Below are positions 15,405 to 59,400 of a stretch of 64,000 nucleotides of DNA, one piece after another. Position 1 is the first letter of the stretch; each line of letters opens with the position of its first letter. The position numbers and the translations under genes were made by a program. The notes beneath the pieces were generated by a model that worked only from the letters and a program-made list of their open reading frames with translations, was not told the DNA's origin and did no database searches. Source of the DNA: Heterodera schachtii (lineage: Eukaryota > Nematoda > Chromadorea > Rhabditida > Heteroderidae); assembly GCA_023374025.1 (NCBI GenBank), contig SIJG01000017.1, positions 1,565,671-1,629,670 of the forward strand, in the 5' to 3' direction.

Positions 15405-17842
15405 ATGACTTTTGCTGTGAATTTTGCGGGTTTTTACTTGTTTTCAATTCCATGTTTAGGCATTTTTGTGAAGGGTCGTTCCATTGCTCAAAATATTCGA
15501 GGAGGGACCATACGTTTGGAGGGGTAAATTATGTAAACGGATGGCTTTAGTAGAAACTTTCTTTTGTTTTAGCGCAACTGTGCTTAGCAAGCGATATCGA
15601 GCAGCAATTAAAAGGTCCATAAAATTGTTGGAACAGAATGACTCATCCAAAACGTCTTCGGGGAAAAATGTGCAGCAATTGGGCGAGGAACTGTGCTCAT
15701 TTTCATTGCTTTGGTCTCTTATCGAAGCGGTCACATTCCGACCATCTCGTAAGAGCTGCTTAAATGTAAAACTTAAAAGTTGTTTTAGAAAATTTGATTG
15801 TCGTCGATTTGCTCGAGTGGGCCCACGAGTGTTTTCCGTCCACCCAATCACTGATTCCGAGTGTCCAGAGTAACCATTTGCGCGACTCAAACTTTCTCGG
15901 AACAGTCATGGAAGAGCTAATGCAGCAGGAACGGCCCGAAGACCACGAATCGTATTGGAATTCGGTAGGGAATTGCGAATTTAATTTTGAAAAACTCCAA
16001 AAGGGCCCAAAGACAACATTTGTTTCATGTGCTTTTGCTCAGGTGCTTCGCCAGATGCTCTGCGCCGATTTCTCCTCAGTGCTCACTTTGCTCCAATTCC
16101 ATTCAGCCTTCAAAAATGACGAGGCCCTCTTAAAAATGGGGAAAATTTTGCAGTCTGTGAATGTGTCTCTGTTCAAATATGACCGTACAAATTGCGATGA
16201 ATTTTTGGCACTAAGAAAAGTAAAACTTAGTTATGTTCGTTTTTACCAAATAATTGTTTATTTTCAGAAAGTTTGTGATTTGACTGCTCACAAGCAAATG
16301 TTCCGTTCGCATGACAATTTGGGAGTGATTTGTTCTCTTTTGATCGGCGATCGCGGCACCTTCAAAAAATACTTTGACCTCTTCCGTCCCAATTGGTTCG
16401 AAGTGTTCCCCGCCTTTCTCCTTTTCTTTTACCCTTCTTCCACCGGCGAGCAAATGCCCAAAGTCATTGAGGTGAAAAGTGTTTTTCTGTGTTTTGCTCG
16501 TCTTTACTTCGATTTTAAGAATTTCTTCAATTTGGTCTCCGTTCGACGCGACAAATTGTCCCAACTTGAACAAACCATCTTGAGCATTGTTGAGTTTGAT
16601 CTGATCAAGGGACTGCGACTGATTTGCTCAGCTGGACAGTCCGCCTGTTGGTTCGCCACCCATTTGGTGGACCTTCTGCACTTCCATGACTCCAACTTTC
16701 TGAATCCCACTTTGACCGCGACTTTGCCCAGCGGAGGGGCGCAAAAACTTTTGGACGGCGTTCGTTCATTCTCAATTTAAATGCATTTTAAAAATGTTTG
16801 TTTAGTTCAGCAAAGATTCCGCGGATTTTGACCTTCGCGCCCGACTTTTGGTCGAATACGCTCAACTCCTTTTCCAAGACGACCAACTTTGGGAAATTGC
16901 GCCCGAATATTTGATCGCCAGCGGATTGGGCAGTGTTGGTCAGCGGATACTCGACCAACTCGTCAGCCAATTCAACTGGAGGGGAAACACATCGGTGGCA
17001 CAGCGACTTCTGACAATTTGTGACCGCTACGAACTGGGCACGGCACGGGAGGACATTTTGAGATCGCTCGTTTTAATGTAAATTTTATAATTAATGAATG
17101 CGGAATAATTTTACAAATTGTTGTGACGAATATTATCAATTCATTGTTAAGGCTTTGCCGGCAGGGAGAATGGACGAGTGCGCTTGGCTGGGCTCTCCAA
17201 ATGAGTTCCAACGAACTCACCGTTAACGTTTCTCGTCGTATTCTCGAGGGTGCCATTTCGCCCGATCGCATTGGACAGATGCGCATTTTTGAAGCACTCG
17301 ACGACCAATTTGTGAACTGTTCTGAGCTCGTCCTTCTCTACAAGTTCTACACATTCAAACGTTTGCTGCTTGAGGGCGAACTTCGTCAGGCCGTTCATAT
17401 TCTCCATGAATTGTTCATCGACAACTCTTCCCCCGTGGAATTCCACGCCGTTCTCTTTGAAGAAATGATCCGAATTTTGTGCTCTTTCCAACAACCACTG
17501 GTCGGTCTGGACGTATTAAACCCCGAAGAAATGGTCAGTTTTTCATCCCGTCCTTTTGTATTATTACGCTGTTTTTCTATTATTTAGATCACTCCTGGCC
17601 TTGACCGCGAATTGGTGCAGGACATGTTCCGTTCATTGAGCATGTTGCACCTGCAACAGCAGTTGTTGGCAACGAAGAGCAGAAGCGGAGGAAGCAGGTC
17701 AGTGGAACGACCGACAAAGGCACTGTTTCCTCCGAACGATTCGATGGCGCAGAGCGAAGAACTCAGCGAAAGAGTTACTAATCTGATGGAAACCCTACGG
17801 CCAATGCTCACCCAAGCATTGGCAAATTGTTTTTTGGATTAA
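15405..17842 (+). CDS. npp-2: Nuclear pore Y-complex protein NUP85
   Basis: Ten exons in phase: 15405-15429, 15460-15523, 15573-15748, 15789-15964, 16043-16219, 16268-16471, 16520-16759, 16806-17077, 17152-17533 and 17588-17842. They give 656 residues, the size usual for NUP85. It is a scaffold of the Y (NUP107) complex and is all-helical. Landmarks: LIVVDLLEWAHECFPS near residue 90, DHESYWNSVLRQML, FEVFPAFLLFFYP, DLRARLLVEYAQLLF, LWEIAPEYLIASG, AQRLLTICDRYELG, and a leucine-rich C-terminal helix region. The start is chosen because only this ATG keeps phase into exon 2; it is a 25-nt first exon and the least certain part. A longer ATG frame upstream (15317) does not splice in phase. Confidence 0.85.
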
Positions 17843-18048
17843 TTACATTATATCATGTTCGTTTGCAATAACTTTTTTGAAGTTTTTCAAATTACTGCTT
17901 GGAATTGTCATGCAAAGACAAGGCTTATAATGAGAAAATAACTAATCAAACAGAGGACATACCGAGTTTTTTCAAAAAGACAAACCAAGTCAAACCCAAT
18001 CTTTAAGAAAAATAAAAGAGGAATCGAATTTTGATATCTCGTCAGCAA

Positions 18049-20322
18049 TCACTTTCCATTCTGAGTTTGCGAGCTGCTGCTGCTGCTGCTACTGCTGGTG
18101 TTGCTGCTACTGAACGAAATGGAAATGTTGAGGCTGGCAGTGACTGCGGTGCGTACTTTTGTGCAAGTGATGCAGCACTTGGACATGGACAGGGCGTTGT
18201 AATTCTGCGATGGAAACAAAATGATTGCTAATGAGTTAGTGTACTGCTTGCTGACCGGGTCAAGACACGTCTTCATGTAGCTGGGATCGGTACAATTTCC
18301 GTTCATCAGATTGTCCGAACATGCTGAAAATGGCAATCAGTACACCAAAAGAAAAAGTGGCATGGAATACGTGTCGGGAAGTTCGGCTTCGGCACCACTA
18401 CTTGTCCGTCTTCCTTTTTGGTGCACTGCGATTGCATCTGTTCGTAGTCCGATTGCAATTGGTTATAGCTTTTCTCCGTTTCCGCTTTGCTCTGTTCCGT
18501 CTCTGACATGCTTTTTTCCATCTCTGTTTGCTTTTGTTCCATTTGCTTTTTTTCTTCCTTCATTTGACTATTTTGTTCATTCATTTGCTTGTTCGACTCT
18601 TCCAATTGTTCGTTCTGTTTCTTCACTTCGTTGTATTCACTTGTCTTCTTTTCAAACATTTGGATGGTTGTTATTGTTTTTGTCACCAGCTTTTGGTAAC
18701 TTTCTACTAATTTAAAGTATTCTTCTTGTATCATATAATGGCTTTGATCGTGTTGCGCCATCGAAGAAGTTGAAGCAGTACTTGGTGTTGAATAGCTACT
18801 GCTTGAAACTGTGCTTGATTCTGTACTCAGTGATGATGCACTTGTAGTTGAACTCTCTGTTGACGTGATTATTGTACTTGTTGATTCGATGCATGTCGGT
18901 GAACTTGATGTCACCGAACTTGTGCTTGATTCTGTACTGGGAGTTGAAGCACTTGTAGTCGAACTAGAGCTTGGTGTCGAAGCAGTTGAACTTGGTGTCG
19001 AGGTACTGGTCGAAATAGTGCTTGATTCGGTATTCGTAGTTGAACTTGAACTTGGTGTCGAGGTACTGGTCGAAATTGTGCTTGATTCGGTACTGGGAGA
19101 GGAAGCACTTATAGTCGAACTAGAGCTTGGTGTCGAACCGGTTGAACTTGTGCTCGACTCAGTATTAGTAGTTGAAGCACTTGTGGTCGAACTAAAGCTA
19201 GGTGTCGAAGTACTGGTCGAACTTGAACTTGGTGTTGAACTACTGGTCGAACTCGTTATAGTTGAACTTGAACTTGGTGTTGAAGTACTGGTCGAACTTG
19301 TGCTTGATTCAGTACTAGTAGAAATAGTTGAGCTTGAGCTTGGTGTTGAAGTACTGCTCGAATGCGTGCTTGATTCAGTACCAGTTGAACTTGAGCTTGG
19401 CGTTGAAGTACTGGTTGAACTTGAACTAGGTGTTGAGCTACTGGTCGAACTCGTTATAGTTGAACTTGAGCTTGATGTTAAAGTACTGATTGAACTTGAG
19501 CTTGGTGTTGAAGTACTGGTCGAACTTGTGCTTGATTCAGTACTAGTAAAAATAGTTGAGCTTGAGCTTGGCGTTGATATGCTGGTTGAACTTGAACTTG
19601 GTGTTGAAGTACTGGTCGAACTTGTGCTTGATTCAGTTGGTGTTGAAGTACTGCTCGAACTCGTGCTTGATTCAGTACCAGTTGAACTTGAGCTTGGTGT
19701 TGAAATACTGGTTGAACTTGAACTTGGTGTTGAAGTACTGGTCGAACTTGTGCTTGATTCAGTACTAGTAGAAATAGTTGAGCTTGAGCTTGGTGTTGAA
19801 GTACTGCTCGAACTCGTGCTTGATTCAGTACCAGTTGAACTTGAGCTTGGTGTGGAGGTACTAGTTGAGCTCACTGTTGATATTTGCTCATTTAATTTTT
19901 ATCTATATTTAAATAGGCATACTTGTCGATAAAGTGCTCTCAATTTGACCACCTCCACCCGACCCTTGTCCATTTCCAGATCCTCCTCCAAATCCTCCCC
20001 CTGATCCCGCTCCACCGCCATTCCCTCCTCCATTTCCTGCTCCACCGCCATTTGCTGCTCCTCCTCCGTTTCCTACTCCTCCCCCACCACCACCACCTCC
20101 AGCTCCTCCTCCTCCACCTCCGCCTGCTGCCCCTCCTCCATTCATGCCTTGACCCCACCCTTGGCCACTGCCTTGTCCTCCTCCCCCTCCCCCTCCTTGG
20201 CCAAAACCTTGGCTATTACTCGCTGCGTTGCTCAAGCTTCCACAAGAAACATGATGGAAAAATACATTTTCAAGAACATTAATTATAACAATAATATGGA
20301 CATATTGTATAAGCTTCATCAT
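18049..20322 (-). CDS. Secreted Gly-rich / Ser-Thr-repeat / coiled-coil / ShKT-like protein (effector-like paralogue A)
   Basis: Four exons: 19923-20322, 18371-19873, 18256-18323 and 18049-18204, 708 residues in phase. It starts MMKLIQYVHIIVIINVLENV (signal peptide or N-terminal hydrophobic segment). Then come a Gly/Asn-rich stretch, about 350 residues of Ser/Thr-rich degenerate repeats (units like STSTPSSSS and TESSTSS), a Gln/Glu/Lys coiled coil, and the segment QCTKKEDGQVVVPKPNFPT shared with the neighbour. After that is a cysteine motif (GNCTDPSYMKTC, then MSKCCITCTK) and a Ser-rich tail ending QTQNGK. The cysteine part fits an ShKT domain with an altered last cysteine. Intron 3 (18205-18255) is 51 nt and in frame; removing it brings the ShKT spacing to normal. 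Function unknown. Secretion, repeats and tandem duplication suggest a parasitism or surface protein. Confidence 0.72.
18810..19873 (-). repeat. Ser/Thr-coding tandem repeat
   Basis: Degenerate repeat made of mixed 15-18-nt units (on + for example 'gttgaacttgaacttggtgt' and 'gaagtactggtcgaact') that combine into longer higher-order copies. It encodes the Ser/Thr/Pro core of paralogue A. All units are multiples of three, so copy-number changes keep the frame. The complementary strand is also open (about 370 codons rich in Val/Leu/Glu) as a by-product. Confidence 0.85.
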
Positions 20323-21077
20323 TCCTATATTTTTGGTAAAGCTTTTAATTAACAAAGAATGACAGAAAATTATTTTCTTTTTTTAGTGCGTCCATAAACT
20401 GTTTGAGCGTTAAGCAGAACAAATATGTAGTATTTATAAAGATTAAAACCATTTCAAGCAAGCAATTGGATTGGCCTATTTATGTGTGTCTCACGGTGAA
20501 CCCAGGTTAAGCTGACCAAACAAAAAGTTTCTTTTTTTATCCTCTCATTCAATGATTTAGCAAAATTTCATTATACCCAAACAAAAAATATTTTTAATTA
20601 TTTTCTTTGACAGAAGATCAGTCACTTTCTTTATTTAGTCGAAAGTTTTATGTTTTCCAAGTATTTCTATATAAATAGTATCTAAACAAGATATATTTTT
20701 ACAAATAAGTAAAAAATTATTAATTTATGAGGTTAACTGGGAAAATAATTATTATATAATTTTTAAAAGAAATATTAATTAATGGATTTCTTCAAAACAA
20801 AATAATTATGCCTCCTTGGAGTTTTTTAATCATGAAAAAATTCAAAAAAATCAACTAAATATGATAAACCTGACTCAAAAAAATGACAGACATATGTTTT
20901 TATAATAAAAAAAAATATATATATATCGAACTGCGTTTACAAGATAACATATCTCTGTCAAAAAATATAATGACACACATCAATACAATTGAAGCAAATT
21001 AAAAATAGGAATAAAAGTCAAATTGTTTAAATTTTTCCCATAAAAAGAGGAAGCGAATTTTGATATCTCATCAGCAA
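20323..21077. other. Intergenic, AT-rich, between the two paralogues
   Basis: Upstream region of paralogue A and 3' flank of paralogue B. A TATAAATAG-like box lies at about 20,670. At 20507-20525 the sequence ttaagctgaccaaacaaa resembles ttaagctaaacaaacag upstream of paralogue B (23567-23583). This is a possible shared element, but weak. Confidence 0.4.
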
Positions 21078-23434
21078 TCACTTTCCATTCTGCGTTTGCG
21101 AGCTGCTGCTGCTGCTACTGCTACTGAACGAGATGGAAATGTTGAGGCTGGCAGTGACTGCGGTGCGCACTTTTGTGCAAGTGATGCAGCATTTGGACAT
21201 GGACAGGGCGTTGTAATTCTGCAATGGAAACAAAATGATTGATAATGAGTTAGTGTACTGCTTGCTGACCGGGTCGAGACACGTCTTCATGTAGCTGGGA
21301 TCGGTACAGTTTCCATTCATCAGATTGTCCGAACATGCTGAAAATGGCAATCAGTATACCAAAAGAAAAAGTGACATGGAATACGTGTCGGGAAGTTCGG
21401 CTTCGGCACCACTACTTGTCCGTCTTCCTTTTTGGTGCACTGCGATTGCATCTGTTCGTAGTCCGATTGCAATTGGCTATATTGTTCACTCATCTGTTTC
21501 CTCGATTCCTCCGACTGTTCTTTTTCAGTTCTTAGCTCTTCGCATTCTTTTACTTTTTTCTTATAAATTTTAATAGTTTTTGTTGCATTATCCGACAATT
21601 CTTCGTAAGTGGCAGCTAATTGATAATAAGCTTGCAACAACATCTTGTAACTTCCTCCATGGTTTTCGTTTTGGCTTCCATCTTGCCACTGTCCATTTCC
21701 AGATCCTCCACCAAGTCCTCCTCCCGACCCTCCTCCTGTTCCTCCTCCGTCTCCTCCTCCTGTTCCACCTTCGTTTCCTATTCCTCCTCCGCCTTTTCCT
21801 CCTGTTCCTCCTCCGTCTCCTCCTCCTGTTCCTCCCCCCGACCCTCCTCCTGTTCCTCCTCCTGTTCCACCTTCGTTTCCTGTTCCTCCTCCGCCTCCTC
21901 CTCCTGTTCCTTTTCCGTCTCCTCCTCCTGTTCCACCTCCGTCTCCTCCTCCTGTTCCACCTTCGTTTCCTATTCCTCCTCCGCCTTTTCCTCCTGTTCC
22001 TCCTCCGTCTCCTCCTCCTGTTCCTCCCCCCGACCCTCCTCCTGTTCCTCCTCCGTCTCCTCCTCCTGTTCCACCTCCGTTTCCTGTTCCTCCTCCGCCT
22101 CCTCCTCCTGTTCCACCTCCGTTTCCTGTTCCTACCCCTCCTGTTCCACCTTCGTTTCCTATTCCTCCTCCGCCTTTTCTTCCTGTTCCTCCTCCGTCTC
22201 CTCCTCCTGTTCCACCTCCGTTTCCTGTTCCTCCTCCGCCTCCTCCTCCTGTTCCTTTTCCGTCTCCTCCTCCTGTTCCACCTCCTGTTCCACCTCCTGT
22301 TCCTCCTCCGTCTCCTCCTCCTGTTCCACCTCCGTTTCCTGTTCCTCCTCCGTCTCCTCCTCCTGTTCCACCTCCGTTTCCTGTTCCTTTTCCGTCTCCT
22401 CCTCCTGTTCCACCTCCGTTTCCTGTTCCTCCTCCTCCTGTTCCACCGTCGTTTCCTATTCCTCCTCCGCCTTTTCCTCCTGTTCCTCCTCCGTCTCCTC
22501 CTCCTGTTCCACCTCCGTTTCCTGTTCCTCCTCCGCCTCCTCCTCCTGTTCCTTTTCCGTCTCCTCCTCCTGTTCCACCTCCTGTTCCTCCTCCGTCTCC
22601 TCCTCCTGTTCCACCTCCGTTTCCTGTTCCTCCTCCGCCTCCTCCTCCTGTTCCTTTTCCGTCTCCTCCTCCTGTTCCACCTCCGTTTCCTGTTCCTCCT
22701 CCTCCTGTTCCACCTTCGTTTCCTATTCCTCCTCCGCCTTTTCCTCCTGTTCCTCCTCCGTCTCCTCCTCCTGTTCCACCTCCGTTTCCTGTTCCTCCTC
22801 CGCCTCCTCCTCCTGTTCCTTTTCCGTCTCCTCCTCCTGTTCCACCTCCTGTTCCTCCTCCGTCTCCTCCTCCTGTTCCACCTCCGTTTCCTGTTCCTCC
22901 TCCGCCTCCTCCTCCTGTTCCTTTTCCGTCTCCTCCTCCTGTTCCACCTCCGTCTCCTCCTCCTGTTCCACCTTCGTTTCCTATTCCTCCTCCGCCTTTT
23001 CCTCCTGTTCCTCCTCCGTCTCCTCCTCCTGTTCCTCCTCCGTCTCCTCCTCCTGTTCCTCCTCCGTCTCCTCCTCCTGTTCCACCTCCGTTTCCTGTTC
23101 CTCCTCCGCCTCCTCCTCCTGTTCCTTTTCCGTCTCCTCCTCCTGTTCCACCTTCGTTTCCTATTCCTCCTCCGCCTTTTCCTCCTGTTCCTCCTCCGTC
23201 TCCTCCTCCTGTTCCTCCTCCGTCTCCTCCTCCTGTTCCACCTCCGTTTCCTGTTCCTCCTCCGCCTCCTCCTCCTGTTCCTTTTCCGTCTCCTCCTCCT
23301 TTTCCACCTCCGTTTCCTCCTCCGCTTCCTTCTGCTCCTCCTACTCCGTCCATTTCATCGCATTCATCACACCCAATTGTTTCTTTTACAAGAAATATTA
23401 ATAAAATGGTAAATAGCGTTAAACGCGGCCACAT
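21078..23434 (-). CDS. Secreted Gly-rich-repeat / coiled-coil / ShKT-like protein (effector-like paralogue B)
   Basis: Three exons: 21385-23434, 21270-21337 and 21078-21218, 752 residues in phase. It starts MWPRLTLFTILLIFLVKETIG, a clear signal peptide likely cleaved before CDECDEMDG. About 550 residues of Gly-rich repeats follow (units such as GGGDGKGTGG, GGTGNGGGTGGGDGGG and GGKGGGGIGNEGG), then a short coiled coil. The end is shared with paralogue A: QLQSDYEQMQSQCTKKEDGQ, VVVPKPNFPT, the same cysteine motif and the same Ser-rich tail. The last two introns match paralogue A in position and almost in sequence, including the in-frame 51-nt one (21219-21269). The repeat core and the signal peptide are unrelated to those of A. 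Function unknown. Confidence 0.75.
21700..23330 (-). repeat. Gly-coding tandem repeat array
   Basis: Hierarchical repeat: short units of 9-18 nt (on + 'cctcctcctgttcctcctccg' and variants) are organised into blocks of roughly 80-260 nt that recur almost unchanged, for example the start 'ccttcgtttcctattcctcctccgcc' found at about 21765, 21960, 22150, 22448, 22713, 22970 and 23152. This implies recent unequal exchange. No frame on either strand contains a stop over more than 1.6 kb, a result of the composition. Confidence 0.9.
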
Positions 23435-23803: not shown

Positions 23804-25535
23804 TTAATATTTGTCATTTCTAATGAGATCGCTCTCTTCCTCTTCCAATTTTTGTTCCTCCCTCAAATTCCTTCCGCTTTTTCTTCTCCGTGCCTCCTCT
23901 GTTGCTGTTTGTCCGCTTCTGTCAGTGCCATTCGCAGCGCATCCATCGTTTTGGCCGACTGTTTTTTTTGTTTGATTGGCATTTTGCTTAAATGCTCAAA
24001 AATAGACTGACCATTGCAATGACTCCACTGCTCCAATGTCTCTGTGCTTTGTCAATGGCCCGAATGGCCTCAGGGAATGCAAGTTGAGAGTGGTCCTTGA
24101 GAAATGTCAACATTTTCGGGCTCTTCCAGAGAAGGAGTGCTCTTTCTGCCAGCTGAAACATTATTATCCATTTTAAATGCCATGTCGACAATTTCCATAC
24201 CCGTGCATTTTGACTGGTCGTACATCGAACCAATCGGCCAACTAATGGTTTCATAATTGCCCGGAATTGGTCCTCACCAACTTGGCTCAAAATTTCATCC
24301 AACTCGGTGATGAACAGAATCTGAAAGTGTAAGTATTTTCGCCGGTGTCACTTTCAATTTTCCCACTTCTCTGATGCCACTTTTTGATGGCCAATTCCGT
24401 AGCAGTGATTTTATCACGGGTTTAGCCAACGAGGCGTCCTTTTCAACGAAAAGCATCACACAATATACCAACTTGGAGAAAAACATTGGCAGCGCGGGTG
24501 ATTTGTGTAATGGAAGCAGAACTCGAAACAGAAACTGTCGATGCTCCTCCTTCAGCGGCACATTGAATCCGTTGATGATGTCGCCAAGGATTTGGAGCAG
24601 TTCGTCCACCCCATTGAAGGGCATGGACTCGAAAGGTGTGGGACAGCAAAATGTTCGCCATTTGTTTCCGAATGCCGGTCCTCCGCTCCGTTAGTTTTGT
24701 GTAAATGCCGTGTACAATTTGCCGGGCTTTTTCCCGCTCCCGAGAGTCCGCCGAGCGGAGCAGCTCCAGTGCATTTAAGCAGAAGCAATCGGAGATGAAA
24801 GGGTCGAGCTGTTCGGCGGACAAACGGTCGATCAGCTGGCGGAGAAGGCGGTAGACCAACTGAAGGTGAGGCCAGGCCGGCTCCAAGAAAAGGCTGGACG
24901 AGGGCGAAGAGCCGAGCAAATCCTCCGAGTTGGACTCGCTCCACTGCGGCGAATAGGCACTCGGCGGCAACACCCTTCAGGGCAAATCAAGAGTAATTAG
25001 CAGTTCGGGCTGAAGGTTGAAGCCAGTCTTCAGTCATACCTGAACAGGTTGCACTCCATCGTTTTGAACAGTTCAGTGCCAATCTCCTCATTTGCCAACA
25101 ATGCGCTGTTTCTGCCAATGGCAACGAACTCGTTAAGCTCCTTTAGGGCATCTGCCTTCACTTCTTTCTCCTGTTTTTGCTTCATCGGGTCGCCAAAGTC
25201 AAGCATTTTTTGACATTGGCGCAACTTTTGAACAAATAATTTGCGTTGCCTAATTGGGTCGCAAATTGCTTCGCGGAGTGTCGGAAGAGGGACCTTTGGA
25301 GGGCGAGGGGCACATTCGCTGCTGATTATGCAAGACGAATCGGGGGACTGACCAGTGCTCCGTCCTCCTCAATGCTAGTCATGTCGCTGTTCTCCAGCTC
25401 GGTGCCGCTCTCCTGCTGGCCCTGCTCCGGCCACTTTTGCTGCCATTGCTGGGTCTCGAGGAACTGCTCGACCGAGTCGGCCCTCGTCCGCACTTCCCAC
25501 TCCCATCCGCCGGCGGAGGATAACATTGTCGTCAT
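23804..25535 (-). CDS. PP2A regulatory subunit B56 (PPP2R5 family), divergent
   Basis: Exons: 25353-25535, 25040-25293, 24367-24974, 24201-24320, 24012-24152 and 23804-23959, about 486 residues. B56 subunits direct PP2A to substrates. The N-terminal part has LPTLREAICDPIRQRKLFVQKLRQC. The HEAT-like core has HGIYTKLTERRTGIRKQM, ELLQILGDIINGFNVPLKEE, RVLLPLHKSPALP and VGRLVRCTTSQNAR, then LAERALLLWKSPKMLTFL and AIDKAQRHWS, all at expected family positions. The C-terminus is short and charged. The exon 24367-24974 needs a one-base shift near 24,630 (ANILLSHTF then ESMPFNGVDELL). The sequence on both sides aligns to the family without a gap, so this looks like a one-base insertion in the assembly or a recent mutation rather than an intron. 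ATG 25535 is the first ATG in frame. Confidence 0.85.
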
Positions 25536-55563: not shown

Positions 55564-56021
55564 AAGTGGGAATTAATGGTGCCAAAATATTTAATGAGAT
55601 ATTTTAAACCCAAAAAAGAATAATGACTAAAATAAAATTAAACAAAATTAGAAAAAGGGAGCAATGACAAGGGAAAGAGACGAATAGACAAATGTTGATG
55701 GATGAAGAAGAAATGGGGCGGGGGGGGGGGGGGGGGAGGGAGTGGCACAGTGTTTGGAAATGGGACAAAGTCAAACAAATATTTATTGATGGGATTTTCG
55801 GTTGGTGGAAAAGCGACTGACTAAACCAATGAAAAAGGGTGAAAATAAAAGGATGGACGAGATGAGTCATCGCAAATTCATTTATTCATTTCATTGGTGG
55901 AAAATATGTGAAAAATTTGTTCGTTTTTCGTATAATTATGGAAATCGCGAGACGGTGAGAAAAAAAAGAAAAGTAAGAGAAAATTGGAGAGAAATTTAAA
56001 TAAAAAATTTAATATTTTTGA
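55564..56021. other. Intergenic
   Basis: 458 bp with a 14-base G run (about 55,721-55,735) and A-rich sequence; no gene seen. Confidence 0.5.
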
Positions 56022-59000
56022 TCAAAATATGCTGCTGACAGTGCGTCGCAAATCTTTGTAATTCTTCAAATGATTTGCGCATTGGCCGCACGTCAGCGGA
56101 CATCGCTGAGCCATGAAAACTTTGTACGACTTAAAATGGGAAGGGATTCATTTGTTCATTCGTTTTCGCCATTTGTTCGGTGTTTTTGCATTTGATCAGT
56201 CCAATCACTCATTGATCAGCAAGGAAAACGATGATAAGTGACGAGGGACCAATTCAAAATGAGTGTTATAATTAGCCTCCTAATGACCAAAATTTCCGAT
56301 TTCCCTTTTTGTACAAACTCCAAGACCTCCCTCACCCAAATTTCTCAAAAAAGTTTCGCTATTTTTTGAAAATCCACAAAAATAGGCTGAATCACGAAAA
56401 TTAGTCATTTTAGGTGAAAGTCTGTTAACAAATCACACCAAAATTTAAAAAAAAAAAAACTTTCCCGACGGCTCTTCTCGGCGCCGCCGGCCCCCCGTCC
56501 GGCGGTTCCACTCCCGGACTGTCCCTCCCCCAATCGCCCTCTCTCTTGGCGTTTTATTTACTTCTACGTTGCACCAATCGGAGTTTTCTTTGCAGTCTGA
56601 CGGCTCCGAATCCTCGCACGGGCCCCCGCCATGGTCATCAAAACGTTCCGCATAGGTCGGATTACGTTCGCCTTCTAAATGCCCAGAATATTCAGCCCAT
56701 TTTTTTCAAGAGTTGGGCGGGGGGAAGGGGGCACGTGCCTCATTTTGATATTACCCCCCCCCCCCCATCCGTCTCTCATTTACCCCTTCTCCTTAATTTA
56801 CCCCTCCCCCTCCCCTCGGGGTATGTTTCTGCTTTTCCCCTCTCTCTCCGCTCTTTTACCATTGCACGATTTGCATGTGACTGGGCATCTTTTGTGCATT
56901 CGCTCTTCATAGTCGTGGTCTCCGCACAGAAACTGCTTCTCCCTGCACTCCTCCGGGTCCGTGTCCCTACATTCTTCGTCCTCTTCTTCCTCCTCCTCCC
57001 TTTCTCTCCTCGCCGTTTTCCTCCGTTTGGTCGTTGTCGTTTTTCTCCTGGCACTTTCCCGTGCCGGTTCCGTGTCCGCTGAATGTTCGGCACTTATCGA
57101 TGCCTCCGCTGCAAATGTTTTTGGGTGATTTTTCCGTCCGTTTGTCCGTCCCTTTCCTACCTCTTGTCCGCTTCTTCTTCTTCTTCCGCTTCTGCTGTTG
57201 GTCCGTTTTGCTCTTCCGTTCCCCATTTGTCTTCGTCTTCTTCCTTTTCGTCGTGCCATTGCTCTTTTTCCGCTTTGTCGTCGTCTTTTTTTCGCTTTTC
57301 GTCGTCTCTTTCTGTGCCTTTTTCTTCCTCTTTTTGTGTTGCGTCGTCGCCGTTCCTTCGCTTTTTTTCTTTTTATCTGAACAATTTCTTCTTCATTTTC
57401 CTTTGACTCCTTCCCCCCATACTTTTCTTCTTCCTCGTCCTCTTCCTCCCCACCCGTTCGTCTTCGTCTCCTCCATCCTTTTCATCCTCTTCCTCATCAT
57501 TCTCATAATCATCTTCTTCATCCTCTCCCTTCCCCTCTCGTTCTTTTTCCTCTTCCCCGTCGTATTCCTCCTCTTCTTCCTTTTCCTGCCTATTAAAATT
57601 GCATTGGCATTTCCTTCTCCTCCTCCCCCCCCACTCACTCTCTTTTTCTCTTCCCACTGCTCCTTTGGTCGTTCTTCCTTCTCTTTGCTCGTGTGCCACT
57701 GCTCCGTCGGCCATTCTTCCTCTGCTCCCCTCCTTCCTCATCATCTTCATCATAATCATAATCTTTATCATCATTATAATACCCCTCTTCCTCCTCATCC
57801 TCCTCATTATCATCATCATTATAATCTGTCTCTTCTCTTCCTCTCTGCTTCCTTTTTCCGTTATTCTTTCCATTTTCTCTTCCATTTCCCCTCCTCCCTC
57901 CTCTCCCACTATTACTTCCTTGTCTCCCTTCTCTTCCATCTTCATCAGCATCATCATAATAATTATCCCCCGTTCCTTCATCACCATAATCAGAACCATA
58001 ATCGTCGTATTGTTCATCCATGCTTCCACCTCCATTTCTTCCTCCTCCTTCCCCATTTCCTCTTCCTCCCCCTCCACTTCCTCCTCCTATATTTCCTCCT
58101 CCATTTTTTCTTCTTCCCCCTCCATTTCCCCCTCCGTTTCCTCTTCCATTTCCTCTTCCTCCCGCTCCACTTCCTCCTCCTCCATTTCCTCTTCCATTTC
58201 TTCCTCCGCTTCCCCCGTTCTGTTGTTGTCCGTTTCCGTTCCATTGTCCGTTGTTCGTCTTCCCTCCTCCCATTCCAGCCGCGTTCATTGCCGTTTTGGC
58301 CAATTTTCCCCAAGTTCCTGTCCCCTGCTGTCCGTTCGTTGCCCCTCCTCCTCCTCCGATGGCATTCATCGCACTGTTTGCCACGTTTTTTATGCCCTCC
58401 GTAAAGCGGCCTAGGAAATACCAAGCATAGTCATTACACTAATTACCCTCCTAATGATGGTGCTGCTTGTTACCCCCCTCGTCCGTTTGGCATTTGCTGC
58501 TGCTGTGCCCCTCCCATTGTCCCCCATTGTTGCGGCATCCCTCCGCCGTATCCGTTGTATTGTGCTGCTCCCCCTCCCATCCCATTGTACCCGTACATTC
58601 CTTGGTTAGCTCATTATGAAATTTTTTGAAATGCCGAAAAGGGTGGGTGCAGATAACCTGGCGCCGTTCCGCCCGCCCCATTCATTGCGCCCATTCCGCC
58701 AAAATTCGGCTGCTGCTGCTGTTGAGCACCTTTTTAAATCACCCTTTTAATTTGGCCTATTGTTTTGATCACCTCCGCCGTTGTTTTTGTTATTGTTGTT
58801 CCCTCCGATGGGCAGCCCCGTCAAAGCGCCTGATCAAAGGTCAAATGAGTGAGTGAATGAATGTACCAAATTTGGATTGGCACCCTCTCTCCCCTCTCCT
58901 CCTCTCTCCTCCCCTCTCTCCTCCACTCTCCCTCTCCTCTCTCTTCCCCTCTCTCCTCCACTCTCTCCTCCCCTCTCTCTCTTCCCCTCTCTCCTCCTCT

Positions 59001-59400
59001 CTCCTCCTCTCTCTCTCTTCCCCTCTCTCCTCCTCTCTCCTCCTCTCTCCTCCTCTCTCCTCCCCTCTCTCCTCCACTCTCCCTCCCCTCTCCCTCCCCT
59101 CTCCCTCCCCTCTCTCTTCCCCTCTCTCCTCCACTCTCTCCTCCCCTCTCTCTTCCCCTCTCTCCTCCACTCTCTCCTACCCTCTCCCCTCCCCTCTCCT
59201 CTCCTCCCCGCGCGCCCCCCCCCACACTTTTTTATGCTTACCCACTACTTTTGGCCCATTTTTAATGGCCATTTTCCCAATTCGTGCCGCCAATAATGCG
59301 TTCCCATTAACAAAGGGTTGACCGTGCTGTTGGAGCAGTTCAAAGAAGAGAACTGGAAGGAAAAAGGGCACAAAAGGAGAGAAAGTGCCAAAATCAAAAC
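56022..59400 (-). CDS. Gly-rich / acidic low-complexity protein with two C-terminal ShKT domains
   Basis: Read from about 59,390 to TGA 56022-56024; the 5' end is uncertain. In order: helix-like LFFELLQQHGQPFVNGNALL and ARIGKMAIKNGPKVV (exon ending about 59,230); ALTGLPIGG with Asn/Gly runs; Gln/Gly/Met-rich exons; RFTEGIKNVANSAMNA; about 200 residues of Gly/Asn/Arg-rich then Asp/Glu/Tyr-rich sequence (57,645-58,410); and acidic Glu/Lys exons. ShKT domain 1 (56864-56971) is CRDTDPEECREKQFLCGD...RMHKRCPVTCKSC. ShKT domain 2 is split by an intron: CEDSEPSDCKENSDWCN (exon 56568-56674) plus YKVFMAQRCPLTCGQC (last exon 56022-56129). Both have all six cysteines in standard spacing. ShKT domains occur in secreted nematode proteins, often as potassium-channel-toxin-like folds or accessory modules. 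No signal peptide could be fixed; the exon phase near 58,480 is unresolved. Confidence 0.62.
58888..59215. repeat. Pyrimidine (CTCTCCTCCC)n microsatellite in an intron
   Basis: About 330 bp of C/T-only repeats ('cctctctcctcc' variants) on +. It lies in the intron between KNGPKVV and ALTGLPIGG of the ShKT gene. Open frames in every phase on both strands are by-products. Confidence 0.9.

Follow-up and report, generated by a model that had tools for sequence, protein, structure and literature searches.

The stretch of DNA analysed here (the window) spans 64 kb of the Heterodera schachtii genome (G000:C17:1565671-1629670; the genome comprises 178,491,932 bases in 356 contigs) and contains two genes, A and B, that constitute a real pair encoding probably secreted repeat proteins. 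Gene A (18049-20322; 708 residues) and gene B (21078-23434; 752 residues) form a same-strand tandem pair on the minus strand, to which all coordinates of their parts refer. The models of both genes are sequence-based, having been built from splice signals and conserved frames, and all five introns have GT..AG ends and lengths of 47 to 51 nucleotides (nt). Gene A consists of four exons (20322-19923, 19873-18371, 18323-18256, and 18204-18049) and gene B of three (23434-21385, 21337-21270, and 21218-21078). The order of parts is the same in both, namely, a hydrophobic N-terminus, a long repeat core, a coiled-coil end, KKEDGQVVVPKPNFPT, a cysteine-rich domain, and a Ser tail.

In gene A, exon 1 (19923-20322) encodes the hydrophobic N-terminus, a probable signal peptide, followed by a Gly-rich block with the sequence FGGGSGNGQ (residues 28-126; 19945-20241) and a short linker. 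Intron 1 (19874-19922; 49 nt, GT..AG) separates this block from a Ser/Thr/Pro repeat block (residues 134-504; 18762-19873), after which come a predicted long helix or coiled coil (18426-18761; AlphaFold2 without alignment), intron 2 (18324-18370; 47 nt), and exons 3 and 4 (18049-18323), which are interrupted by the intron at 18205-18255 and encode a six-cysteine domain, the Ser tail, and the stop. In gene B, exon 1 (21385-23434) encodes the hydrophobic N-terminus, a Gly/Thr/Asp repeat block (21689-23353) that ends in LGGGSGNGQ, and the coil; intron 1 (21338-21384; 47 nt) leads to exons 2 and 3 (21078-21337; intron 21219-21269), again with a six-cysteine domain, the Ser tail, and the stop. The last two introns, of 47 and 51 nt, are thus common to both genes, and intron 1 of gene A is without a counterpart in gene B.

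A single long BLASTN match joins the two genes, 18467-18014 against 21481-21043, in which 424 of 454 positions (93%) are identical and 15 gap positions fall in the Ser run. This near-identical 3' tract (18014-18467 in gene A, 21043-21481 in gene B) takes in the last part of the coil, the segment that follows it, the cysteine domain, the Ser tail, both introns, and 35 base pairs (bp) past the stop, which is what an earlier note on this DNA had described as the common 3' part of two adjoining genes. The shared introns agree at 94 of 98 positions and differ at four. Among 87 tract codons (261 sites, of which 53.7 are synonymous and 207.3 other), seven differences were found between A and B, all synonymous and none changing an amino acid, the seventh, which borders on the Ser run, being alignment-dependent. 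A hand calculation gives a chance of about 2 in 100,000 for seven synonymous and no other changes, and the shared C-terminal part therefore looks translated and constrained. One further synonymous difference lies near the stop, outside the counted codons. At the 3' edge of the tract, identity drops from 8-10 to 1-6 of 10 positions within 10 bp, and no match above 14 nt was present in the approximately 210 bp compared past this end.

Upstream of the tract, the heads of the two coils give an ungapped 60-residue alignment in which 23 residues and 106 of 180 nt are identical. This alignment scores 124, and 2000 shuffles gave nothing above 72; with only the first 55 residues the score is 76, the highest of 5000 shuffles being 51. 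In ten-codon steps, 14 to 19 of 30 nt are identical in five of the six steps and 23 of 30 in the step adjoining the tract, so that the 5' edge of the tract may be blurred. The ungapped alignment places 35 additional residues of gene A at this edge, although the position of the gap depends on the alignment; this A-only stretch (18468-18572; 105 nt) comprises five heptads and overlaps with 21-nt tandem repeats. Outside the tract, then, the aligned sequences indicate that the coils of A and B are homologous, but old. For a 139-residue piece of the gene A exon, AlphaFold2 without alignment predicts a single helix at 10-121 (mean predicted local distance difference test score 87.5; predicted template modelling score 0.46), which suits a rod or coiled coil. 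The coil also has weak matches in the genome (E 0.14 to 5.04), which were put down to chance. Weak Pfam matches of two C-terminal pieces, with best E values of 0.0006 and 0.0024 and, among the matches listed, all under their own cut-offs, start in the coil stretch and were taken as coiled-coil noise.

The difference in identity between the coil outside the tract (106/180 nt) and the tract (424/454) is significant (Fisher p 1e-23), as is that between the same coil positions and the shared introns (94/98; p 1e-12). Protein constraint alone does not explain the tract, because its introns are as alike as its exons. It looks as if recent gene conversion of about 450 bp re-homogenised the 3' ends of A and B.

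The earlier note had regarded the core between the signal peptide and the conserved end as completely exchanged between the two genes, with Ser/Thr/Pro repeats in A and Gly/Thr/Asp repeats in B. This is not the case, as gene A also has a Gly block (99 residues, with 60 G in 98 residues counted), and GGGSGNGQ stands at or near the end of both Gly blocks, GSGNGQ occurring once per protein. In the ten codons ending at GGGSGNGQ, a site picked after the match was noticed, 27 of 30 nt are identical; when codons were drawn at random from the same blocks, 19 of 200,000 draws agreed as well as this. Common ancestry of the Gly blocks of A and B is therefore probable, at the least where they end; their remaining BLASTP and BLASTN matches mostly represent low complexity, and these were given no weight. 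The 371-residue Ser/Thr/Pro block, with 194 S, 105 T (299 S+T), and 22 P, opens a new exon between the Gly block and the coil of gene A. Homology between A and B takes in the coil and the Gly-block end, so that their difference comes down to one extra Ser/Thr/Pro block in A together with repeat growth.

Cut after each T, the gene B block yields 68 pieces, chiefly GGGDGGGT (18), GNGGGT (13), GGGGGGGT (9), and GGGDGKGT (8). These pieces follow one another in a markedly non-random order (mutual information 1.73; the highest of 2000 permutations gave 1.34), and a segment of at least 235 bp recurs in the block as an exact direct repeat, offset by 267 bp. Ordered pieces and an exact repeat are the pattern expected from recent duplication of multi-motif units; the HYP effector genes of cyst nematodes show likewise, so the pattern is not decisive. 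The Gly-rich DNA of gene B matches at least 87 places in the genome, two of which, on contigs C16 and C34, were inspected without finding a similar secreted gene in their surroundings (open reading frames of at least 130 residues). Elsewhere, at G000:C142:81734-83926, serial matches to Gly-coding DNA, many of them about 170 bp apart, look like a further tandem array.

At the 5' ends, the signal peptides had been described as unrelated, and no homology between them was detected: the local score for the first 27 residues was reached by 495 of 5000 shuffles. Within 500 bp upstream plus the first 81 nt, only scattered short matches occur, the best of 22 nt (E 8e-5) and 23 nt (E 1e-3), at non-corresponding positions.

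The cysteine domain of A and B, CSDNLMNGNCTDPSYMKTCLDPNYNALSMSKCCITCTKV, had been called ShKT-like. As to spacing this holds for five of the six cysteines; the sixth canonical position is Val, and there is an extra Cys after C4. At least five canonical cysteines appear in 290 of 20,000 shuffles, with allowed spacings that were set after the domain was seen. Sequence comparison did not bear the name out: the spliced domain matched no Pfam family at E<=10, ShK (PF01549) included, and no chain in the PDB at E<=10. Against a ShK profile built from eight domains of the same genome, 167 of 2000 full shuffles and 287 of 2000 cysteine-keeping ones scored as high as the domain itself; against a profile of 23 domains, 427 and 673 of 3000 did so, respectively, and with composition correction 638 and 1251 of 3000. 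The own-genome profiles thus place it within the shuffle range, and filing it as ShKT was rejected on these profile tests, although it may be a degenerate ShKT domain. The same own-genome profiles gave 12 to 31 bits to two ShK-like stretches near 56.5-57 kb of the window. In A and B an intron lies three codons past the third cysteine, and a similar break is possible in the second of these stretches; as a second donor site is possible near 56.5 kb, the shared intron position was given no weight as support for ShKT.

Those two stretches belong to a possible third gene (56000-58440, minus strand), with a Gly-rich part followed by an acidic low-complexity part. Its first stretch scores 18.9 bits for Pfam ShK (cut-off 20.9) and its second is split by a presumed intron, and upstream of it lies a long purine-rich (GAGA-type) low-complexity stretch (58840-59230). 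Across the whole genome, 95 matches to Pfam ShK reach E<=0.1, and a considerable share of these lies on contig C91. A separate locus (L015, 1432-2671) carries probable astacin-type protease frames, the protease family having been recognised by eye, with a Thr/Glu-rich stretch and a ShK domain.

The shared C-terminal part has no third copy in the genome as searched by protein and DNA, the next matches to a 146-residue query having E values of at least 1.24, and with the coil head of gene A alone the next matches have E values of at least 0.14; these genome searches score only the best candidates of a first pass. The earlier note had named a protein search with this part beforehand as a check, and of the 17 and 1 candidates that it yielded among about 5.8 billion proteins, none matched at E<=10; this kind of search covers 0.55 to 1.75 times the query length and needs shared 5-residue words, so that length-variable or fast-evolving relatives could escape. 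Nematode proteins are at least partly present in the collection, as a control with the Nup85-like exon of the window retrieved a Globodera pallida relative (65% identical). The shared part may be lineage-restricted. A literature search on such proteins in cyst nematodes surfaced no paper and one on mucins and ShK in Heterodera surfaced two, which does not show that such proteins are absent from print. As to its surroundings, the A/B pair sits between housekeeping genes, represented by this Nup85-like exon (15770-16780, plus strand) and a PP2A B56 subunit exon (24443-24976, minus strand).

The explanation preferred here, at a probability of roughly 0.5, is that A and B are old tandem duplicates encoding filament-like, probably secreted proteins of a surface coat, matrix, or lining, whose cores were shaped by repeat turnover and whose 3' ends were shaped by conversion. 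The Gly block would act as a flexible or adhesive spacer, and the Ser/Thr/Pro block of gene A as an O-glycosylated mucin arm. The coil would join chains into oligomers, possibly A with B, since both have the same cysteine domain and the same final portion of the coil, and the cysteine domain would cross-link the assembly, which might then build a surface coat, matrix, or lining. Gene B would be the Gly-rich partner on the same scaffold as the mucin-like A. The cores would have changed via tandem-repeat turnover and the gain or loss of one Ser/Thr/Pro block, and the 3' ends would have become alike again through a recent gene conversion that covered about 450 bp. The old duplication and the gene conversion are the best-supported part of this explanation, the matrix role being an inference.

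Several points weigh against this explanation. The signal peptides of both proteins were judged from hydropathy alone, and their cysteine domain shows no significant homology to ShKT. Outside the 87 counted codons there are one N/S change at the first codons of the tract and a difference in Ser-run length. The comparison outside the tract covers 60 codons, and the ten codons adjoining the tract are intermediate (23/30 nt, 8/10 residues), which leaves the 5' edge less sharp than the 3' edge. Finally, the surface or matrix role is an analogy, and secretion into the host remains compatible with the data. An extended form, in which A and B are a lineage-restricted two-gene module whose C-terminal assembly part is kept identical by conversion while Gly-rich and mucin-like arms run free, with repeat numbers varying between individuals as in HYP, appears quite unlikely.

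If A and B were instead host-directed apoplastic effectors with variable repeat cores, acting like HYP while being unrelated to it, their probable secretion, the repeat core beside a shared part, the non-random motif order and exact internal duplication of gene B, and the lack of relatives of the shared part in the genome and protein searches would all be in keeping. However, A and B have no shared 5' part, none of six HYP1 strings occurs in them, and simple duplication of multi-motif units also yields ordered motifs. The sequence ATGCCA is a dorsal-gland motif, and it is absent from both strands within 500 bp upstream of either gene. Such a role is possible, yet doubtful. The view of the earlier note, that the pair is a new family in which the repeat is swapped as a cassette, implies that the genes duplicated recently and that unrelated sequence then genuinely took the place of the core. 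It agrees with a 3' tract that is near-identical including its introns and with signal peptides and 5' flanks that lack detectable homology, but it conflicts with the homology of the Gly-block end and the 60-residue coil head outside the tract; much of the supposedly exchanged part therefore has older common ancestry, and a counterpart is wanting only for the Ser/Thr/Pro block, the signal peptides, and the 5' flanks. Exchange of a whole cassette is thus unsupported, and unlikely as the origin of the pair.

That A, B, or both are mis-predicted or silent, their long frames being open through low complexity alone, is very unlikely. Several frames on both strands are indeed open across the repeats; against this stand the absence of amino-acid changes beside seven synonymous ones in the 87 codons, intact splice signals, and frames that in both genes are continuous from the hydrophobic N-terminus through the repeats to the shared end. 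Overall, the anatomy given in the earlier note was partly right, its cassette-exchange model was mostly wrong, and its analogy to HYP is weak. If old duplication with later conversion is the true history, the pair shows how, in a nematode, the exposed repeats of a secreted polymer can diverge without its joining part changing, which bears on the diversification of parasite surfaces and secretions. It would also caution that a common end beside different cores need not mean a cassette swap, as local gene conversion of an older pair looks alike.

Among known systems, the HYP effectors of cyst nematodes are described as secreted proteins with a conserved part beside a repeat domain of ordered motifs, and their genes as having 410 nt in common at the 5' end and 94 nt at the 3' end (PMC4177990, PMC11228951). 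The HYP-type design proposed for A and B holds insofar as a conserved end adjoins divergent repeats; it fails in that a conserved 5' end is not shared by A and B. Further marks of HYP effectors are expression in amphid sheath cells and variation between individuals. Unlike HYP, known here by description, A and B have only the 3' end in common, and both contain a cysteine domain and a coil. The strings RGGG, RGD, DRGD, YERGGG, NKRG, and REGGD, which come whole or shortened from HYP1 motifs of G. pallida (those of HYP3 lie outside this set), occur in neither protein, in agreement with the earlier statement that no known HYP repeat motif is present. The motif set of G. rostochiensis HYP1 is described as almost entirely different (PMC11228951), so that this test is not decisive alone. 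With no shared 5' part and no motif string found, membership in HYP was rejected.

Closer parallels exist among mucins. The TES-120 surface mucins of Toxocara canis (MUC-1 to MUC-5) are described as secreted proteins with varying Ser/Thr-rich cores and common cysteine-rich end domains (PMC3611597). Gene A may resemble them, having a Ser/Thr-rich core (299 S+T in 371 residues) and a hydrophobic N-terminus whose hydropathy makes secretion probable; gene B is without a Ser/Thr core. O-glycosylation and a location in the surface coat are further traits of this type of mucin. The Toxocara mucins carry tandem ShKT domains, while A and B have one domain each, which lacks the sixth canonical cysteine and is thus not a canonical ShKT; the Gly-rich block and the long coiled coil of A and B are not among the features given in that description of the Toxocara proteins (PMC3611597). 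In the same genome, DNA of the Ser/Thr/Pro block of gene A matches two other places at 65% and 68%, one on contig C101 (L044, G000:C101:59500-68500) and one on contig C109 (L045, G000:C109:106500-110500), through low-complexity repeats that are no proof of descent. The matches, to one gene at each place, lie in Ser/Thr-rich frames that end in ShK domains above the Pfam cut-off, and a hydrophobic N-terminus is visible in L044. Like gene A, they have Ser/Thr/Pro-rich repeats followed by cysteine domains; unlike A and B, their ShK domains pass the cut-off, and neither coil nor Gly block is found in the open reading frames listed (at least 110 and 90 residues, respectively). Such ShK-ended frames are spread over L044 (1-9001, on both strands) and L045 (1-4001), three of them with nearly identical ends.

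Another such protein of a plant-parasitic nematode is Mi-muc-1 of Meloidogyne incognita, whose knockdown is described as reducing both Pasteuria endospore attachment and fecundity (PMC6638177). Gene A is like it, by description, in being a Ser/Thr-rich mucin-like protein; 'ShK' is absent from the main text of that paper, and 'cysteine' appears in its reference list only (PMC6638177). Given the Toxocara-like architecture and the presence of ShK-ended Ser/Thr genes in the genome, a mucin-like or matrix role is the most economical one for gene A. By analogy with these systems, A and B most likely resemble building blocks of a coat or matrix more than they do the known hypervariable effectors.

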